Source of the DNA: Geothrix edaphica
GTDB taxonomy: Bacteria > Acidobacteriota > Holophagae > Holophagales > Holophagaceae
NCBI RefSeq assembly: GCF_030268045.1
Contig: NZ_BSDC01000002.1
Span: forward strand, 496,001 to 560,000
Length of the DNA: 64,000 nucleotides
Direction: 5' to 3'
The notes beneath the pieces are model-generated. The model was not told the origin of the DNA and did not search any database. It worked only from the letters and a program-made list of their open reading frames with translations. Positions 5,613 through 49,176 of the stretch are shown here, piece after piece. Position 1 is the first letter of the stretch. Every line of letters begins with the position of its first letter. The position numbers and the translations under genes were made by a program.

Positions 5613-7472
5613 ATGGATGCCATCACGTCTGTCCTTCGCCGCTGCGAAATCTTCTCGGGGCTGTCCGACGCCGACCTGGGCCTGATCGCCAAAGCCGCCC
5701 GCCGGCGCGAAGTCCCCGCGGGAACCCGCCTCTTCACCCAGGGTGAGCCCCGCAAGGGCGCCACGGTCATCGCCGAGGGCCGGGTCGAGATCACCCGCGA
5801 CAACGGCGAGGGCGCCGAGCCCGTGGTCATCCTGGGCCCCGGCGACGTGGCCGGCGAGCAGTCCTTCCTGGCCGTCAGCACCCACACGGCCACGGGCGCG
5901 GCCCTCACCTCCGCGGTGCTGCTGGACCTGGACCGCGAAGCCGTCCTCCAGAGCCTCGGGCAGGATGGCGCCGCAGCCATCGCCGTGCTCAGCAAGGTCG
6001 CCAACGTCCTGCACCAGCGCATCCTCTACTCGGCCACGCCCCGCACCGGCCGGGAGCAGGCCTACGCCAGCGGCCGCACCCGCCGCGAATCCGACCTCAT
6101 CGGCCCCCTGGACGTGCCCGAGGACGCCCTCTTCGGCGTGCAGACCCTGCGCGCCGTGCACAACTTCCCCATCACGGGCACGCCCACCAGCCACTTTCCG
6201 GCCATGATCCGCGCCCTGGCCATGGTGAAGCAGGCCGCGGCCCGAGCCAACGCCCGCCTGGGCCTGCTGGACCCGGCCATCGCCGATGCCATCGACCGCG
6301 CCTCGCAGGAGATCATCGACGGGCACTGGCACGGCCACTTCCCCACGGACATGGTGCAGGGCGGCGCGGGCACCTCCACGAACATGAACGCCAACGAGGT
6401 CATCGCCAACCGCGCCCTGGAGCTGCTGGGCCACAAGCGGGGCGACTACGGACATTGCCACCCCAACGATCACGTGAACCTGGGCCAGAGCACCAACGAC
6501 GTCTACCCCACCGCTCTGCGCCTCAGCACCATCTTCATGCTGAAGAACCTGCTGGACGCCATGGAACGCCTGAAGGCCGCCCTCCACGCCAAGGGCCGCG
6601 AGTTCTCCGATGTCATCAAGATGGGCCGCACCCAGCTGCAGGACGCCGTGCCCATGACGCTCGGCCAGGAGTTCGAGGCCTACGCGGTCACCACCGGCGA
6701 GGACATCCAGCGCCTGCAGGAGACCGCCCGCCTCTTCCTGGAGGTGAACATGGGCGGCACGGCCATCGGCACGGGCATCTGCGCCGATCCCAACTACCCC
6801 CAGGTGGTGGTGGAGGAGCTCCGGAAGGTGACGGGGCTGGAAATCCTGCTGGCGGAGAACCTCGTGGAGGCCACGCCGGACACCGGCGCCTTCGTCATGT
6901 TCTCGGGCGTGGTGAAGCGGGCCGCGGTGAAGCTCAGCAAGCTCTGCAACGACCTGCGCCTGCTCAGCAGCGGCCCCCGCTGCGGCTTCGGCGAGCTCAA
7001 CCTGCCCCCCATGCAGCCCGGCAGCAGCATCATGCCCGGCAAGGTGAACCCCGTGATCCCCGAGGTGGTGAACCAGGTGGCCTTCTCGGTCATCGGCAAC
7101 GACCTCACCATCACCCTGGCCGCCGAGGCCGGCCAGCTCCAACTGAACGTGATGGAACCCATCCTGGCCTACAGCCTCGCCACCAGCCTGCGCACCCTGA
7201 CAGCGGCCGTGAACGTGCTCACCACCAAGTGCATCGTGGGCATCACCGCCAACCGCGACCGCTGCCGCGACCTGGTGGAGCACAGCATCGGCATCGTCAC
7301 CGCCGTCATGCCCGCCATCGGCTACAAACGTGCCACCGAGGTGGCCAAGGAGGCCCTGGAGACCGGCGTGCCGGTCCGGGAGCTCATCCTCCGCAAGGGC
7401 TACCTCACCCCCGCGGAGCTGGACGAGGCCTTCAGCCTCGAGGCCATGACCCAGCCCCGGCCCATCCGCTAG
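5613..7472 (+). CDS. aspA: Aspartate ammonia-lyase with N-terminal cyclic nucleotide-binding domain
   Basis: This 619-residue fusion is longer than ordinary aspartase (about 470). Residues about 10-125 form a CRP-type cNMP-binding beta-roll (GLSDADL start; GEQSFLA at 81-87 as the phosphate-binding cassette). At the position of the cassette's phosphate-binding Arg there is His91/Thr92, so classical cAMP binding is doubtful. From about residue 155 the protein is a complete aspartase/fumarase-superfamily enzyme: TSTNMNANEV, HPNDHVNLGQSTND, and the catalytic loop GSSIMPGKVNP starting at residue 470. The expected reaction is L-aspartate to fumarate plus ammonia in the cytoplasm. No second frame or frameshift separates the domains. 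Aspartase rather than fumarase fits the HPNDHVN and QLQLNVMEP context, but kinetics are unproven. Confidence 0.85.
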   Translation: MDAITSVLRRCEIFSGLSDADLGLIAKAARRREVPAGTRLFTQGEPRKGATVIAEGRVEITRDNGEGAEPVVILGPGDVAGEQSFLAVSTHTATGAALTSAVLLDLDREAVLQSLGQDGAAAIAVLSKVANVLHQRILYSATPRTGREQAYASGRTRRESDLIGPLDVPEDALFGVQTLRAVHNFPITGTPTSHFPAMIRALAMVKQAAARANARLGLLDPAIADAIDRASQEIIDGHWHGHFPTDMVQGGAGTSTNMNANEVIANRALELLGHKRGDYGHCHPNDHVNLGQSTNDVYPTALRLSTIFMLKNLLDAMERLKAALHAKGREFSDVIKMGRTQLQDAVPMTLGQEFEAYAVTTGEDIQRLQETARLFLEVNMGGTAIGTGICADPNYPQVVVEELRKVTGLEILLAENLVEATPDTGAFVMFSGVVKRAAVKLSKLCNDLRLLSSGPRCGFGELNLPPMQPGSSIMPGKVNPVIPEVVNQVAFSVIGNDLTITLAAEAGQLQLNVMEPILAYSLATSLRTLTAAVNVLTTKCIVGITANRDRCRDLVEHSIGIVTAVMPAIGYKRATEVAKEALETGVPVRELILRKGYLTPAELDEAFSLEAMTQPRPIR

Positions 7473-37775: not shown

Positions 37776-37946
37776 CACACTCCAAGGGAACCCATTATGG
37801 CGGTTGCCGCAGGCTGTGGGGACAAGGGTTGACGGAGGCCACACGCATTTTCGCCCTCCATTGGGTGGAGGCGACTCTCCCACCGCCCGGGAGGATGGCT
37901 TGGCCATTCCCCGGGGTTACGGGAAACTGGAAGATCAGGAGGCCCG

Positions 37947-38873
37947 ATGGCCCGTTTCTCCAAGCGTGTGGGCCGCGAAGTCCTCGACGGCCACCCCCGC
38001 CTGCCCGAGTGGATCACCAAGGAGCGGGTGAAACTCGGCGACCTGCACGGCATGAAGAAGGACCTGCGGGACTCGCACCTCCACACGGTCTGTGAGGAGG
38101 CCCGCTGCCCCAATCGGACCCACTGCTTCACCCACGGCACGGCCACCTTCCTGCTCATGGGCGAGGTCTGCACCCGGGCCTGCGGCTTCTGCAGCATCCA
38201 GAGCGGCAAGCCCCGCCTCCTGGACCCCCACGAGCCCCAGGAGACCGCCGAGCGCGTGGCGGCCCTGAACCTCCGCTTCGCCGTGCTCACCTCGGTGAAC
38301 CGCGACGACCTGCCGGACGGCGGCGCCGCCCACTTCGCCGAGACCGTCCTGGCCATCCGCCGCCGCAACCCCGGCGTGGGCGTGGAGGTGCTGGTGCCGG
38401 ACTTCCTGGGCGACCTGGACGCCGTGGCCCGGGTGGTGGCCGCGGGCCCCACCGTCTTCAACCACAACACGGAGACCGTGCCCAGCCTCTACCCCGAGGT
38501 GCGGCCCGCGGGCAGGTTTGAGCGGAGCCTTCGGGTGCTGGCGCATGCGAAGGCGCTGGGGACGGCCCTGTATGGGTCCGGGTTCCGCACCAAGAGCGGC
38601 CTCATGCTCGGGCTCGGCGAAACCGAGGCCGAGCTCATGACCACCTTCGAGGCCCTGGCCGCGCATGGCGTGGACATCCTCACCCTGGGCCAGTACCTGC
38701 GCCCCACCCGCCACCAGCTGCCCGTGAAGCGCTACGTGCCCCCCGAGGCGTTCGCGGAGCTGGGCGCCAAGGCCAAGGCCTTCGGCTTCCAGACCGTCTA
38801 CGCGGGCCCGCTGGTGCGCTCCAGCTTCAACGCCCACGAGGTTTCGGGCCTGGAAGGCATCAGCATCGCCTGA
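37947..38873 (+). CDS. lipA: Lipoyl synthase
   Basis: This 308-residue radical-SAM enzyme has both cysteine clusters of LipA: Cys49, Cys54, Cys60 (CEEARCPNRTHC) for the auxiliary 4Fe-4S cluster and Cys75, Cys79, Cys82 (CTRACGFC) for the SAM cluster. It ends with RSSFNAHEVSGLEGISIA, whose RSS motif is essential to the family. It inserts sulfur into protein-bound octanoyl groups. A decayed second copy of the 3' end lies at about 40320-40506. No lipB is adjacent. Confidence 0.95.
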   Translation: MARFSKRVGREVLDGHPRLPEWITKERVKLGDLHGMKKDLRDSHLHTVCEEARCPNRTHCFTHGTATFLLMGEVCTRACGFCSIQSGKPRLLDPHEPQETAERVAALNLRFAVLTSVNRDDLPDGGAAHFAETVLAIRRRNPGVGVEVLVPDFLGDLDAVARVVAAGPTVFNHNTETVPSLYPEVRPAGRFERSLRVLAHAKALGTALYGSGFRTKSGLMLGLGETEAELMTTFEALAAHGVDILTLGQYLRPTRHQLPVKRYVPPEAFAELGAKAKAFGFQTVYAGPLVRSSFNAHEVSGLEGISIA

Positions 38874-38921
38874 GGGACACCCACGCCGAAACCACGGGAC
38901 TGGTTGTTTGAGTAATAAAAA

Positions 38922-40202
38922 TTATCTGGTTTGAGCCGACCCGCTCGGAGCCAGGTGGATGGACAGCTTGGTGAGGGCCTCGGCCGCGGGGATGAAGAAG
39001 TTCATGTTGCCCCCCTTGAGGCCTGTGGCCAGATCCGCGATGCCCACCACGTATCCGGCCGCGTCCACCAGGGGGCCGCCGCTGTTGCCGGGGAGGATGG
39101 ACACATCGCTCTGAAGGAAACGACCGCCCGGAGCGTCCCGGAAGCCGCTCACCACGCCGCGGGTGACGGACCCATTGAATGTGTCACCCAGGGGGGAACC
39201 GATGGCAAACACTTCCTCGCCGGTCCCGGGGTCGCCGGCGCGGATGGGCAGGGGATCAAACGGGATGGCTGCGGTCTTGACAAGGGCGACGTCCCGCTTG
39301 GGATCGCAGCTCAGCACTTCACCCGGCAGCACCCGGCCGGTCGCCGTCTTGATCTTCACCAGCTTGGAGTTGCCCAACACGTGATTCGCCGTGAGGAGGT
39401 GACCATCCCTGCTGATATAAAACCCCGTCCCGGTTCTGGAGCCGGTCTCCACGGTCACCACGGCCGCCTGGATCAGCGCGCTGTTCTTCACGGTACCGCC
39501 GGCGAGGGCCTGGACCGCGGGGAAGGTGAAGGCGGCTTCAGCCTGCGCCGGGCCGGAAGGCAGGGGGGCGACAAGGGCCTCCTTGAAGGAGGGCTGGAGG
39601 AAGAGGTTGGACACCAGCGAATCAATCCCGGCATCCACGATCTTCGCCCAATGCATGTCCCGGGTGGGCATCACGAACGAGCCCGTGGAGGTGAACTCGC
39701 CCACGACCTTCTGGGTCTTCGGATTGAGCAGGGCCCACTTGGCCTCCAGGGATACGTCCCCTTTTGATTCCACGGTCGTGCACAGGTTCAGGGTCATTTT
39801 CTTGAGCAGGACCCCCAGTTCGAGCTCGGCTTCCTCGGGCTTGCTGGTGGACTCGAACACGGAGTCACTGGCCTTCGGTTCGGGGATGTGTTGGGTCGCG
39901 AGCTCCTTCTTGATCCGAGCATAGAGCTTGCCCCCCACCACCTTCTGGAGGTTCTCGTTCCAGACGATGTCGGTCGGATTACTGCACCACAGGCTGCGGG
40001 TCTGCTGTCCGATCACATCCCCGGTCTTCAGGCTCGCGACGAACCGCTTGAAAACCATTGTGTGGGGAGTGGGCTTGGGGCTCGGTGCGAGCGCGGAGGC
40101 TTGTGCGGGCGACGTGGCAGCCGGGCTGGAGGCGCTGGGCGAATCGGCCCAGAGCGCCACGGCCATTCCCAACCCAAGAAGACAAGACAGCGACGTGTGC
40201 AC
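38922..40202 (-). CDS. Exported trypsin-like serine protease (HtrA/S1C-related)
   Basis: This 426-residue protein starts at GTG 40202, six bases after AGGAG, and has a signal peptide. Residues about 45-235 form an unrecognised domain. A trypsin-like domain then carries the full triad: His274 in LTANHVLG, Asp304 in DPKRDVALVK and Ser374 in LPGNSGGPLVD. No PDZ domain follows; the chain ends soon after the protease, so it is not a standard DegP. The surrounding sequence is less GC-rich (for example 38905-38935), and the gene sits between lipA and a lipA remnant, suggesting acquisition by transfer. Confidence 0.82.
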   Translation of the reverse strand: MHTSLSCLLGLGMAVALWADSPSASSPAATSPAQASALAPSPKPTPHTMVFKRFVASLKTGDVIGQQTRSLWCSNPTDIVWNENLQKVVGGKLYARIKKELATQHIPEPKASDSVFESTSKPEEAELELGVLLKKMTLNLCTTVESKGDVSLEAKWALLNPKTQKVVGEFTSTGSFVMPTRDMHWAKIVDAGIDSLVSNLFLQPSFKEALVAPLPSGPAQAEAAFTFPAVQALAGGTVKNSALIQAAVVTVETGSRTGTGFYISRDGHLLTANHVLGNSKLVKIKTATGRVLPGEVLSCDPKRDVALVKTAAIPFDPLPIRAGDPGTGEEVFAIGSPLGDTFNGSVTRGVVSGFRDAPGGRFLQSDVSILPGNSGGPLVDAAGYVVGIADLATGLKGGNMNFFIPAAEALTKLSIHLAPSGSAQTR

Positions 40203-40319
40203 GAAAACTCCTCGCGAAGACAGACCCGGAATACGAGGCTGCGTGCACCCCAGGGTTTCTGATCTAAAGGTTATCTGATGCCGGGCCCTAGATCGCGGAT
40301 TCATCAGGTCCGCGGCGGA

Positions 40320-40506
40320 TGTTGGTCTCCGCGCACTAGACACGCAACCCGTCGCCCGCGACCTGCCACATGTCCCTCGAGCCCTTCTCGGAGCCGAATC
40401 GCAAGACCAAGGCTTCGACGTCAAAACCCTGTTCGCTGGTCCCCTTGTGCGCTCCAGCTTCAATGCCCACGAGGTTTCGGGCACGGAGGGCATCAGCATT
40501 GCCTGA
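40320..40506 (+). pseudogene. Decayed 3' fragment of a second lipA
   Basis: The + strand frame ending at the TGA at 40504 encodes FAGPLVRSSFNAHEVSG, TEGISIA-stop, nearly identical to the C-terminus of the intact lipA 1.6 kb upstream. Weaker similarity extends back about 35 residues (PHVPRALLGAESQDQGFDVKTL versus PEAFAELGAKAKAFGFQTV; parts shown). An in-frame stop at 40276 and loss of everything earlier make it a remnant. It differs at many codons, so it is an old or foreign copy rather than a recent duplication. Confidence 0.75.
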
Positions 40507-40520
40507 GGCGGTGGGGGTCG

Positions 40521-41555
40521 TTAGCGAGCCTTCAAGGCCATGGATGCCTGGAGCGGGTGGTGCTCCACTCGAACCTCGTTCCCAATGTGGATGGTCAGCA
40601 GGTCTTCCGCGCCCTGCAGGGGTCCCGTGTAGGTCGTCCGGGTTTGTGCCAGGACCCGCGCCGTATTGGGCGCGTGGGAATAGACCGCCAGGCGGGGCGC
40701 CACACGGCGGAATACCGTGCCCGCCTGCTCGGGCGTCGTGTGGTGCGCGATGATCGCGTCGACGATGGCCGGGCTTGGACGGTCCGGCCGGGTGCGGAGC
40801 ATCTCGGGATCGATGGCCTCGTGGATCAGTACGTCGACACCCCGCGCGTGGCGAATGAGGTTCTCCGAGACACGCGTATCGCCAGAGAGCACGACCGAAT
40901 GGCCGCCGTAATCGACGCGGTAGCCGAACGCCGGCCCCACCACACCGTGGTCGACGAGAAAAGCCGCCACCGTCAGCCCGTTCTCCTTGAAAACGACGCC
41001 TTCCTCCGTGATGTCGTGGCTCACCACCGTGATGCCGGCCGCAGGGAAATGCTCATCGACATCACGCCGCACGTGGATGTCGAAGGCGAAGGCCTGCTGC
41101 AGGTGGTTCATCATGTCGCGGGTACCCGTCGGCCCCCACACCGTGAGCGGCACGGCGCGCCGCCCGGCTGCCCAGCCGACCAGCAAGAGGTCGGGGAGCT
41201 GGATCACGTGGTCCGAATGCAGGTGCGTGAGGAATACCCGTGAGATCGAGCCGATCGGAATGCCGGCCTGCGCCAGCCGGAGGGTCGCCCCCCGACCGCA
41301 GTCGAAGAGGAGGCGCTGTCCGCCCGCCTCGACGAGGATGCTGGCGCCGTACTGCTCCAGGTTGACCACCGGTCCCACGCCCGTGCCGAGCAGGACGACC
41401 TTGAGGCTTTCGGGCTGGGGCGCCACTGGGGGTGCCGGAGGGCCGGTCTGCGCCGGTGGGACCCCGGCCGCACGAGCGGCGAGACTCGGGGCAAGGGCCG
41501 CAAACACCTGGGCCATAAGAAAGACACCGATGGCGGACGCGCGGTGCTTGGTCAT
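40521..41555 (-). CDS. Exported MBL-fold hydrolase (RNase Z/arylsulfatase-like)
   Basis: This 344-residue protein starts at ATG 41555 after GGGGAG and has a signal peptide of about 30 residues. The metallo-beta-lactamase core has LTHLHSDHVIQLPDL as zinc motif, a further His in VVSHDI, LSGDTRVSENL, and a late IAHHTTPEQAG His motif. The THLHSDH with GTG/PVVN start is typical of RNase Z-like and arylsulfatase-like hydrolases. Export and size argue against tRNA processing. Codon choice (many CGs, mixed third positions) is unlike the lysine or gyr genes, compatible with transfer. Confidence 0.8.
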   Translation of the reverse strand: MTKHRASAIGVFLMAQVFAALAPSLAARAAGVPPAQTGPPAPPVAPQPESLKVVLLGTGVGPVVNLEQYGASILVEAGGQRLLFDCGRGATLRLAQAGIPIGSISRVFLTHLHSDHVIQLPDLLLVGWAAGRRAVPLTVWGPTGTRDMMNHLQQAFAFDIHVRRDVDEHFPAAGITVVSHDITEEGVVFKENGLTVAAFLVDHGVVGPAFGYRVDYGGHSVVLSGDTRVSENLIRHARGVDVLIHEAIDPEMLRTRPDRPSPAIVDAIIAHHTTPEQAGTVFRRVAPRLAVYSHAPNTARVLAQTRTTYTGPLQGAEDLLTIHIGNEVRVEHHPLQASMALKAR

Positions 41556-41705
41556 CGGGGCTCCCCGGGGTGGACCAGTGCGGTTCAAGGTGCCATGCCG
41601 CCCGTCTTGCCGGCATGGGGCAGTGTGGTGCCCGGCGGACCAGGCCGCAACCGCGAAGGGAGTCCACCTTCTGGTGGGGCCCACCCTCGCAGATCCCGGC
41701 GGCCC

Positions 41706-42353
41706 TCAGCCCCGCCGCGGCTCCACGACGATGGCCGCCGGCTCGGCGGGACAGGCGAAGACGCACAGCCCACAGCCCGTGCAGACGTCCGCCTCCACCA
41801 CGGGATGGCCCACGGCCTCGCCCTCCCGGGGCTCGGCGATCCGGATGGCTTCTTCGGGATAGGGACAGCGGTCCACGCAGACGCGGCAGGCCCGGGGTTC
41901 CCGGTCCAGGTCGCCCCAGGTGGCGCATAGGCTGGGCTTCACGCGGGCGGTGCCCATGCGCACGGCCTTCGGCCCTTCGAGCACGGTGCCATCGGCCCGG
42001 ACGAGTCGGGGCCACACGAGGGCCTCGTCGTCGCACTCGGCAATGCAGGGCAGCGTGGTGCAGAGGAAGCAGGGGATGCTCCTCGGGTCCAGGTAGGGGG
42101 TCTTCAGGCCCAGGCCGGCGCTGGGCCCGGCCTTGAGGATGGCGTTTTCCGGGCAGGCCCGCATGCACTTGTCGCAGCGGGTGCACTTGGTGAGGAACTC
42201 CAGCTCGTCCAGGGCCCCGGGGGGCCGCAACAGCTTCGGCCCCAGGCTCGTCACCGCCTCCTCCACGCGGTTCGCCACGAAGCCGGCGAAGAGGGTCCCC
42301 AGGGACTTGAAGAAGTCGCCGCGTTCCTGGGGTTCCTCGAGCTTCTTGGCCAC
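41706..42353 (-). CDS. Four-cluster ferredoxin-type iron-sulfur protein (NapG/MauM-like)
   Basis: This 215-residue protein has several cysteine clusters: CTRCDKCMRACP, CFLCTTLPCIAEC, CRVCVDRCP and CTGCGLCVFACP, fitting up to four 4Fe-4S centres as in NapG/MauM and related electron carriers. No twin-arginine signal peptide is present, so it is probably cytoplasmic. It is the third gene of a minus-strand run with purB and the Asd-like gene (seven-base gap). The redox partner is unknown. The 150 bases between its stop and the MBL hydrolase show no gene. Confidence 0.82.
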   Translation of the reverse strand: MAKKLEEPQERGDFFKSLGTLFAGFVANRVEEAVTSLGPKLLRPPGALDELEFLTKCTRCDKCMRACPENAILKAGPSAGLGLKTPYLDPRSIPCFLCTTLPCIAECDDEALVWPRLVRADGTVLEGPKAVRMGTARVKPSLCATWGDLDREPRACRVCVDRCPYPEEAIRIAEPREGEAVGHPVVEADVCTGCGLCVFACPAEPAAIVVEPRRG

Positions 42354-42360
42354 GGCTGCT

Positions 42361-43191
42361 TCAATCCATCAATCCCAGCACCCGCATGGTGGGCCGCAGG
42401 GTGCCCCACAACACGGGGTCGAAGCCCAGGGTGAGGACCGCGGCCTTCCCGTCGCTGGCGAGGTCCAGGTGGGCCAGCAGGTCCGCGCTCACCGCCACGT
42501 CGCGGGAGCTGGGCGGGGCGGCCACCCAGGCCACGCCGGCCGGGGCGGCCTTTTTGGCCAGGGCCTTCCCCTCCGCGGCGCGAACCTGGAGGATCAGCAG
42601 ATCACCGTGAAAGGAGGGCACCCGGATCTCCATGAGGCGGCCCTTGCCCGCGACGGGCGCCACGGGCACCACTTCGAAGGCCTGGCGATAGCCCAGCTTG
42701 GCCAGGTCGGGATCTTCGCCGTTGAGGACCGCCAGGGTCTGCTCCACGAGGCCGTCCAGCCCCCGGTCGCCCATCCAGGCCACGGAGCGCAGGTGGGTCC
42801 CGCCCACCTCGCCCAGTCCCTCGACCAGGGAGGGCAGGAGGGCCAGCACCTGCTCCAGGGCCGGGCGACCCCGCAGCGACTTGGCGCCCTGGGGCCAGGG
42901 GCCGACCAGGGGCATGGGATCGATCCTGGCCTCGGGCTCGGAGCGGAGGTCCAGGATGCGGCCGGGGAACCCCTCCAGCAGGTCCGGGTCGGGTGTGTCC
43001 GCCAGGATCACCGCGTCCAGCCCCTCCAGCAGGAGGCGGCTCGGCGCGAAGACCACCAGGTCCCCCACCTCCTCCTCCACGGTGAGGGCGCCGATGGACA
43101 GGGGCAGCACGGAGGCGTCCCGGGCCTCCAGGGCCCCCACGAGTTCGCGACCCAGCAGGGTCTGGGCGCCGATGACGGCGAGCTTCAGCAT
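42361..43191 (-). CDS. Aspartate-semialdehyde dehydrogenase-like protein lacking the catalytic cysteine (Usg-like)
   Basis: The 276-residue protein starts at ATG 43191 after AAAGG. LAVIGAQTLLGRELV is an Asd-type Rossmann start, and the middle has Asd-like segments (LRSVAWMGDRGLDGLVEQ; FEVVPVAPVAGKG). The usual N-C-T nucleophile motif is absent and the protein has no cysteine, so it cannot catalyse the Asd reaction in the standard way. Similar Asd homologues such as E. coli Usg exist without known function. A genuine asd is in the lysine operon. Located between purB and the ferredoxin gene. Confidence 0.72.
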   Translation of the reverse strand: MLKLAVIGAQTLLGRELVGALEARDASVLPLSIGALTVEEEVGDLVVFAPSRLLLEGLDAVILADTPDPDLLEGFPGRILDLRSEPEARIDPMPLVGPWPQGAKSLRGRPALEQVLALLPSLVEGLGEVGGTHLRSVAWMGDRGLDGLVEQTLAVLNGEDPDLAKLGYRQAFEVVPVAPVAGKGRLMEIRVPSFHGDLLILQVRAAEGKALAKKAAPAGVAWVAAPPSSRDVAVSADLLAHLDLASDGKAAVLTLGFDPVLWGTLRPTMRVLGLMD

Positions 43192-46082: not shown

Positions 46083-46511
46083 GTGGTCGCTGACGGGCTG
46101 TTCGTGTATGGGTCCTTGCGGGAGGGCGGGTCGAGCCACGCCTGGCTGATGCGGACCCATCCGGAGGGGCTGACCCGGGCCTGGGTGGCGGGGCGGCTCT
46201 TCCACCTGCCGGCCGGCTACCCCGCCCTGGTGCCGGGACCCGAGCCCCCGGATCCGCCCCCGGGAAGGGGTTGGGTCCGGGGCGACTTCGTGGGCTATGA
46301 CGACGAGGCCGACCTCGACTCGGCCATGGCCGACCTGGACGCCCTGCTGGGCGTGGAGGAGGGCCTCTTCAGCCGGGAGATCCTCCCCGTGCTCCTTGAA
46401 AGTGGCCACCGCTACCGCGCCTGGGTCCATGTGTTCCATGTGGAACGCCTGCCCAGGCTGGAGCGGGAGGCCGTGGAGCTGCCCGACGGCGACTGGGCGG
46501 CCTACCTCTGA
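46083..46511 (+). CDS. Gamma-glutamylcyclotransferase-like (GGCT/AIG2) protein
   Basis: This 142-residue protein begins LFVYGSLREGG, the substrate-binding YGSL(R) loop of GGCT/AIG2-like folds, and a conserved acidic segment is present near residues 95 and 75 (EEGLFSREI). The start is GTG at 46083, preceded by AAGGGGGG. The reaction, cyclisation of a gamma-glutamyl or related amine, is family inference. It stands alone between two hairpins and is probably transcribed by readthrough or a local promoter. Confidence 0.78.
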   Translation: MVADGLFVYGSLREGGSSHAWLMRTHPEGLTRAWVAGRLFHLPAGYPALVPGPEPPDPPPGRGWVRGDFVGYDDEADLDSAMADLDALLGVEEGLFSREILPVLLESGHRYRAWVHVFHVERLPRLEREAVELPDGDWAAYL

Positions 46512-46513
46512 CA

Positions 46514-46545
46514 CAGAACAGCGCGGGCAAGCCCGCGCTGTTCTG
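46514..46545. terminator. Bidirectional hairpin between the GGCT gene and gyrA
   Basis: A perfect 15-base stem (CAGAACAGCGCGGGC / GCCCGCGCTGTTCTG) with a two-base loop AA lies in the 58-base gap between the convergent gene stops. It lacks a clear U-tract on either side but is well placed to end both transcripts. Confidence 0.6.
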
Positions 46546-46569
46546 CATATGCCGAGATCCTCGGTGGAG

Positions 46570-49176
<2,607 letters not shown>

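Follow-up and report, generated by a model that had tools for sequence, protein, structure and literature searches.

The convergent junction behind lipA in Geothrix edaphica carries a real scar of gene gain, and one of a known kind. A block of 2.83 kb between lipA and its native neighbor consists of a protease gene, a second copy of the lipA tail, and a gene for an MBL-fold hydrolase. We are highly confident that the copy represents a lipA end, either displaced or duplicated, whose presence here is connected with an insertion, and comparison with relatives shows that the MBL-fold gene and the protease gene were added to the junction in this lineage. As to how the copy came about, we give roughly an even chance to its being the displaced end of an older lipA, pushed downstream by an incoming new lipA end and its cargo. 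The window, by which we mean the whole stretch of 64,000 nucleotides that was analyzed (G000:C2:496001-560000, where G000 is the label of the source genome), lies inside a contig of 660,716 bases and contains the following features.

37947 to 38873, plus strand: lipA, intact and native to the genus, encoding lipoyl synthase (open reading frame, homology in the genus, NCBIfam).
38874 to 41705, no strand: block between the lipA stop and the ferredoxin-gene stop, missing from sister-like relatives, right edge plus or minus a few bases (junction comparison).
38922 to 40202, minus strand: gene for an HtrA/S1C-like serine protease, probably starting with the GTG at 40202 that follows GAGGAG (Pfam Trypsin_2, E 8e-32; genome searches).
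40339 to 40506, plus strand: lipA 3'-end remnant (lipA positions 760 to 927), upstream part decayed, stop TGA at 40504 to 40506 (DNA alignment, nucleotide HMM, protein search).
40521 to 41555, minus strand: MBL-fold metallo-hydrolase gene (Pfam; genome searches).
41706 to 42353, minus strand: native NapG/MauM-like ferredoxin-type gene, ancestral convergent neighbor of lipA (Pfam, NCBIfam, junction comparison).

The intact gene encodes a lipoyl synthase (TIGR00510, 350 bits against a cut-off of 310.25), and this native lipA type is present in most same-genus genomes searched; among the best 80 of 522 confirmed matches, the named relatives are Geothrix species and Holophagaceae MAGs. We measured the gap from the lipA stop to the ferredoxin stop and retained 39 loci from 57 values, having dropped 17 duplicate records (all 17 pairs identical over 600 or fewer bases around the junction) and L144, whose broken lipA lies at a contig end. 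There is no gap value for L136, which has another lipA type, or for L168, L169, L024, L025, L026, L028, and L030, where no ferredoxin gene was found. The gap is at most 60 bp in 26 of the 39 loci, 155 to 181 bp in 3, and at least 500 bp in 10; in G060 the junction reads TGA-CCC-TCA. These comparisons show that in the ancestral state only a few bases separated the lipA stop from the convergent ferredoxin gene. The window keeps CCCTCAGCCCC on the ferredoxin side, which puts the break at the lipA stop or no more than a few bases from it. The stretches of 155 to 181 bp downstream of lipA in L139, L151, L153, and L163, together with part of the L151 insert, are lower in GC and share short, partly inverted, REP-like repeats at the lipA/ferredoxin junction. 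In L168 and L169 (G027 and G018) the lipA C terminus differs after EVAE and no ferredoxin gene was found downstream; in G018 it is located upstream of lipA instead, some 8 kb away and in the same orientation.

A sequence-only reading of this DNA had proposed that the LipA C terminus is repeated 1.6 kb past the intact lipA stop in the same orientation, and this is borne out. The copy spans 168 nt, and a nucleotide HMM of lipA genes from the genus detects it at E 2e-21, while 240 letter-shuffled controls searched with the same HMM (five for each of 48 downstream regions) gave no match at E ≤ 1. A whole-genome protein search also detects it (E 1.3e-10, LipA residues 258 to 308). The match is not limited to the last few codons, since the alignment with intact lipA extends over the full 168 nt. 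Conservation is uneven along the copy: 69 of the final 81 nt are identical to intact lipA, against 61 matches, 24 mismatches, and 3 gap positions ahead of them (Fisher p 0.04 for the difference). Because the matching lipA stretches in 13 intact relatives differ from the window lipA by only 2 to 16 of 86 positions in the upstream part (and by 7 to 15 of 81 in the tail), that part of the copy is preserved worse than the relatives' lipA genes. The best DNA alignment places a one-base shift of reading frame upstream of the tail; an alternative single-frame protein match covers LipA residues 259 to 308 at 63%. No stop interrupts this frame over 75 codons (40279 to 40503), and its sole ATG, GTG, or TTG is the GTG at 40447. 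As this only possible start sits within the tail, the copy is a remnant and not a gene, most likely without function of its own.

The source genome has a second lipA elsewhere (G000:C3:38073-38915), 51% identical to the first, and similar second copies occur in many genomes of the genus, so that possession of two divergent lipoyl synthases may characterize the genus. As a source of the displaced tail this gene was rejected, its match being short and weak, over about 40 bases only. The native lipA is itself a mosaic between species. G000 and G060 differ at 3 of 180 positions in two adjacent segments (window 38577 to 38756, lipA 631 to 810) and at up to 13 of 90 elsewhere in the gene, and lipA 631 to 810 is likely to be a recombination tract. 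In L023 the lipA gene (stop at 6990) has extra codons ahead of the terminal GGISIA, as if its tail had been split and then rejoined in frame.

The gene between lipA and the copy is an HtrA/S1C-like protease gene, as had been read from the letters, with four weaker HtrA-type relatives within the source genome (36 to 40% identical). The block was missed in part by that reading: it exceeds the protease and reaches 41705 with the MBL-fold gene. By eye, the catalytic motifs of both proteins look present. Among the 47 genus genomes, the source genome included, only the source genome matches the protease at E ≤ 1e-30 or the MBL protein at E ≤ 1e-20. In searches of 396 phylum genomes, capped at 4 or 5 scored candidates for each genome, only the source genome itself matches the protease at E ≤ 1e-40, and 73 genomes, the source genome among them, have a match to the MBL protein at E ≤ 1e-20; of these, the closest homologue is 72% identical and belongs to another family, and one in the same family is 34% identical. 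The first proposal, arrival of foreign DNA at the lipA 3' end, is partly supported: there was an insertion, lipA is native, and at these thresholds none of the 46 other genus genomes has the block genes. The different base composition claimed for the protease is a mild effect. GC3 is 0.834 for the protease and 0.836 for the MBL gene against 0.92 to 0.98 for six neighbors (lipA, the ferredoxin gene, 42361 to 43191, purB, KUP1, and gyrA), but GC3 alone does not mark the block, because the EamA gene outside it has 0.842.

Several other origins and roles of the block genes were considered and set aside. For a phage origin of the protease there was one pattern match in viral contigs and none confirmed, in a scan that reaches close relatives only. 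For a plasmid origin, 918 plasmid records match the protease, none over at least 80% of the protein, and 221 match the MBL protein, all at less than 60% identity and one over at least 80%. With regard to defense, PADLOC matches of the protease are confined to its protease domain region, and no match was obtained for the MBL protein. Rfam gave no family at the gathering threshold within 37800 to 42400. The motif TTATCTG, mentioned earlier as a possible boundary repeat, was rejected as chance: it occurs in the window only at 38922 and 40271 (both strands searched; 0.59 per strand expected from base composition), and some 7-mer is common to both flanks in 38% of 5000 shuffled pairs of 100-base flanks.

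The length of the copy recalls integration of a mobile element. In the available part of its description (PMC6379469), prophage e14 in icd leaves a displaced gene end of 163 bp, close to the 168 nt found here, and as in icd, the 3' end of a metabolic gene would have been replaced and an old end of about 160 bp left at the far side. Site-specific integration at the lipA 3' end with a replacement tail, followed by loss of the integrase and most other genes, would also fit the finding that 10 of 39 loci have inserts at this junction. However, Pfam finds neither an integrase nor a transposase in the two block genes or in 9 open reading frames from 8 of the other inserts, and the close-relative scan of viral contigs confirmed none as related to the protease. 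The lack of a transposase among the two block genes also speaks against insertion of an insertion sequence. Unlike e14 in icd, the lipA block has no integrase or phage gene that we found, its two lipA copies have diverged (12 of 81 tail positions and 24 of the 85 ahead of them, plus gaps), and most large inserts at the lipA junction (8 of 10) are without a clear tail copy. We consider such an integration improbable.

The MBL stop lies 14 bp past the remnant stop, a spacing that resembles a junction of lipA with a neighbor. Remnant and MBL gene might accordingly have been acquired jointly, if ordinary homologous recombination brought in part of the lipA-MBL junction of a donor, and the long branch of the remnant in a tree of lipA tails and the homologues that the MBL protein has in other families of the phylum, the best at 72%, would agree with this. 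Against it, the MBL gene stands beside lipA in none of the relatives whose loci were compared and has no match in any other genus genome at the threshold given above, and we think a joint arrival improbable as well. The tail tree (30 rows) leaves 18 of its 27 inner branches open, with the remnant of the window and the one described below both on long branches and neither placed; placing them by tree was dropped as uninformative. Comparison of the locus in relatives, as first suggested, established that they lack the protease block.

A second genome, also absent from the first reading, carries a scar of the same kind. In G063, on a contig of 3,733,873 bases, the order is intact lipA, a 0.9-kb insert with an open reading frame of 215 amino acids, a lipA 3' remnant, and the ferredoxin gene. 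The remnant corresponds to lipA positions 632 to 776 and 862 to 926, with the intervening stretch missing, and it runs as TGA-TCA into the ferredoxin gene, which is the native junction form of L135, L144, L149, L150, and others. Because the far copy thus occupies the place of the native lipA end, the near lipA end and the insert would be the added part in G063. This geometry favors the far copy as the old native end. The earlier part of the G063 remnant has 116 matches, 19 mismatches, and 1 gap against intact lipA, and 58 of its final 62 nt are identical to the intact tail, two of the four differences falling in the stop codon. Remnant and intact gene both carry a phenylalanine codon that is not seen in 17 other listed tails. 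Duplication or gene conversion would explain the 58/62 match and the common codon no less well than displacement. A tandem duplication of lipA, with decay of the second copy and insertion of foreign genes into or beside it, is therefore possible, above all for G063, and in the window, too, the remnant shares orientation and lipA type with the intact gene. But only the 3' ends survive in both cases, and none of the 48 regions downstream of lipA (42 of 5 kb and six shorter) holds a second full lipA or a complete tandem pair of the native type; relatives with the same arrangement and an intact second gene were likewise not seen. For the window, we rate duplication as unlikely.

Large inserts at 10 of 39 junctions are a further feature that the first reading had missed, and their contents differ. 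Pfam identifies a kelch-repeat protein (G024), a GGDEF protein (G016), and a GH5-like protein (G001) among the nine outside the window; the G019 insert has a rhodanese and a GntR/aminotransferase regulator, those of G014, G063, G028, and L023 encode proteins without a Pfam match, and that of L029 has no convincing gene by eye. No two large inserts share a nucleotide match longer than 67 bp (87%); this one links the window block with G063 and is the lipA tail. The inserts are not all strictly unrelated, as a 49-bp repeat is common to L151 and the short insert of L139; the many short, frame-hopping tblastx matches between inserts, mostly of L023 with L156, were taken as composition artifacts. 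Clear lipA remnants occur in 2 of the 48 downstream regions, those of the window and G063. Five weaker HMM matches (E 0.057 to 0.91) were rejected as remnants, that of L144 being the end of its own broken lipA and those of L024, L029 (twice), and L163 taken as chance.

Of two other nearby convergent junctions, used as a control, one has gaps of at least 500 bp in 4 of 29 loci and the other in none of 20, although long inserts might fall beyond the fetched stretches there. Three of the four control inserts are mutually related (87 to 91% over at least 2.1 kb) and were counted as one event. Inserts are more frequent at the lipA/ferredoxin junction (Fisher p 0.039 by loci, 0.010 with the three related inserts counted once), in a post hoc comparison that ignores relatedness among genomes and draws on partly different genomes. 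An insertion hotspot at this junction is suggested, not proved. At the next convergent junction, before gyrA (window 46511 to 46570), G069, G022, and G003 have a related insert of 2.2 to 2.3 kb, and G061 has one of 0.9 kb.

We favor displacement of an older lipA end for the window because the remnant is real, the gap is so short in 26 of the 39 loci, and the block genes are unmatched in the 46 other genus genomes at the thresholds given above; because G063 has the same order with the old end seemingly kept in place at TGA-TCA; because the 14-bp spacing is junction-like and lipA is mosaic between species; and because neither an integrase nor a transposase was seen with Pfam in the two block genes or the 9 open reading frames of other inserts. 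The lipA/ferredoxin junction would be an accretion site at which the MBL gene already lay behind the old lipA tail as an earlier addition. DNA of a related donor, with a lipA end and a different sequence behind it, would then have recombined by homology with the resident lipA on its left side and joined without homology, inside the old lipA 3' end, on its right. The resident lipA would remain whole, as a hybrid or a replacement, and the protease would enter as cargo; the old tail, with the MBL gene behind it, would be shifted by 1.6 kb and then decay. The two-step order is a further assumption, because the remnant in the window does not adjoin the ferredoxin gene and the MBL gene intervenes. 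Also against displacement are the tail tree, which places neither remnant, the 8 large inserts without a clear one, and the fact that neither a donor nor a same-species genome with an empty site was found among the genomes searched, so that the joint is not mappable.

Homology-facilitated illegitimate recombination is described for competent bacteria in the available part of PMC3240628, and we put our confidence in it as the route at about one-half. The DprA and ComEC families are present in the genome, which is compatible with DNA uptake; they say little, because each is also present in 10 of 14 control genomes, Escherichia coli included. For type VI secretion (T6SS) effector-immunity modules of Vibrio cholerae, the available part of PMC5361080 proposes this kind of recombination and 3'-displacement arrays, in which, as here, new DNA would enter behind a conserved upstream anchor and shift the older 3' part downstream. 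Unlike those arrays, as that part presents them, the lipA anchor is a metabolic gene, the displaced piece is apparently nonfunctional, and the cargo is no effector-immunity pair. At the lipA locus, as in the Vibrio paper, the recombination itself is a proposal. A broader idea, which we hold only tentatively and think unlikely as it stands, is that the lipA 3' end in Geothrix serves as a recurrent anchor for cargo acquired by DNA uptake, with genes arriving behind a fresh lipA end and displaced tails recording the order of events, as a metabolic-gene counterpart of the T6SS/Rhs 3'-displacement arrays. A literature search found no paper containing both "Geothrix" and "lipoyl synthase."

The lipA locus preserves a legible trace of the gain of foreign genes in Geothrix, at a tiny convergent junction to which different genes have been added on several occasions. 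If the anchor model holds, displaced gene ends could reveal the order of acquisitions; otherwise, they would be ordinary genome wear.
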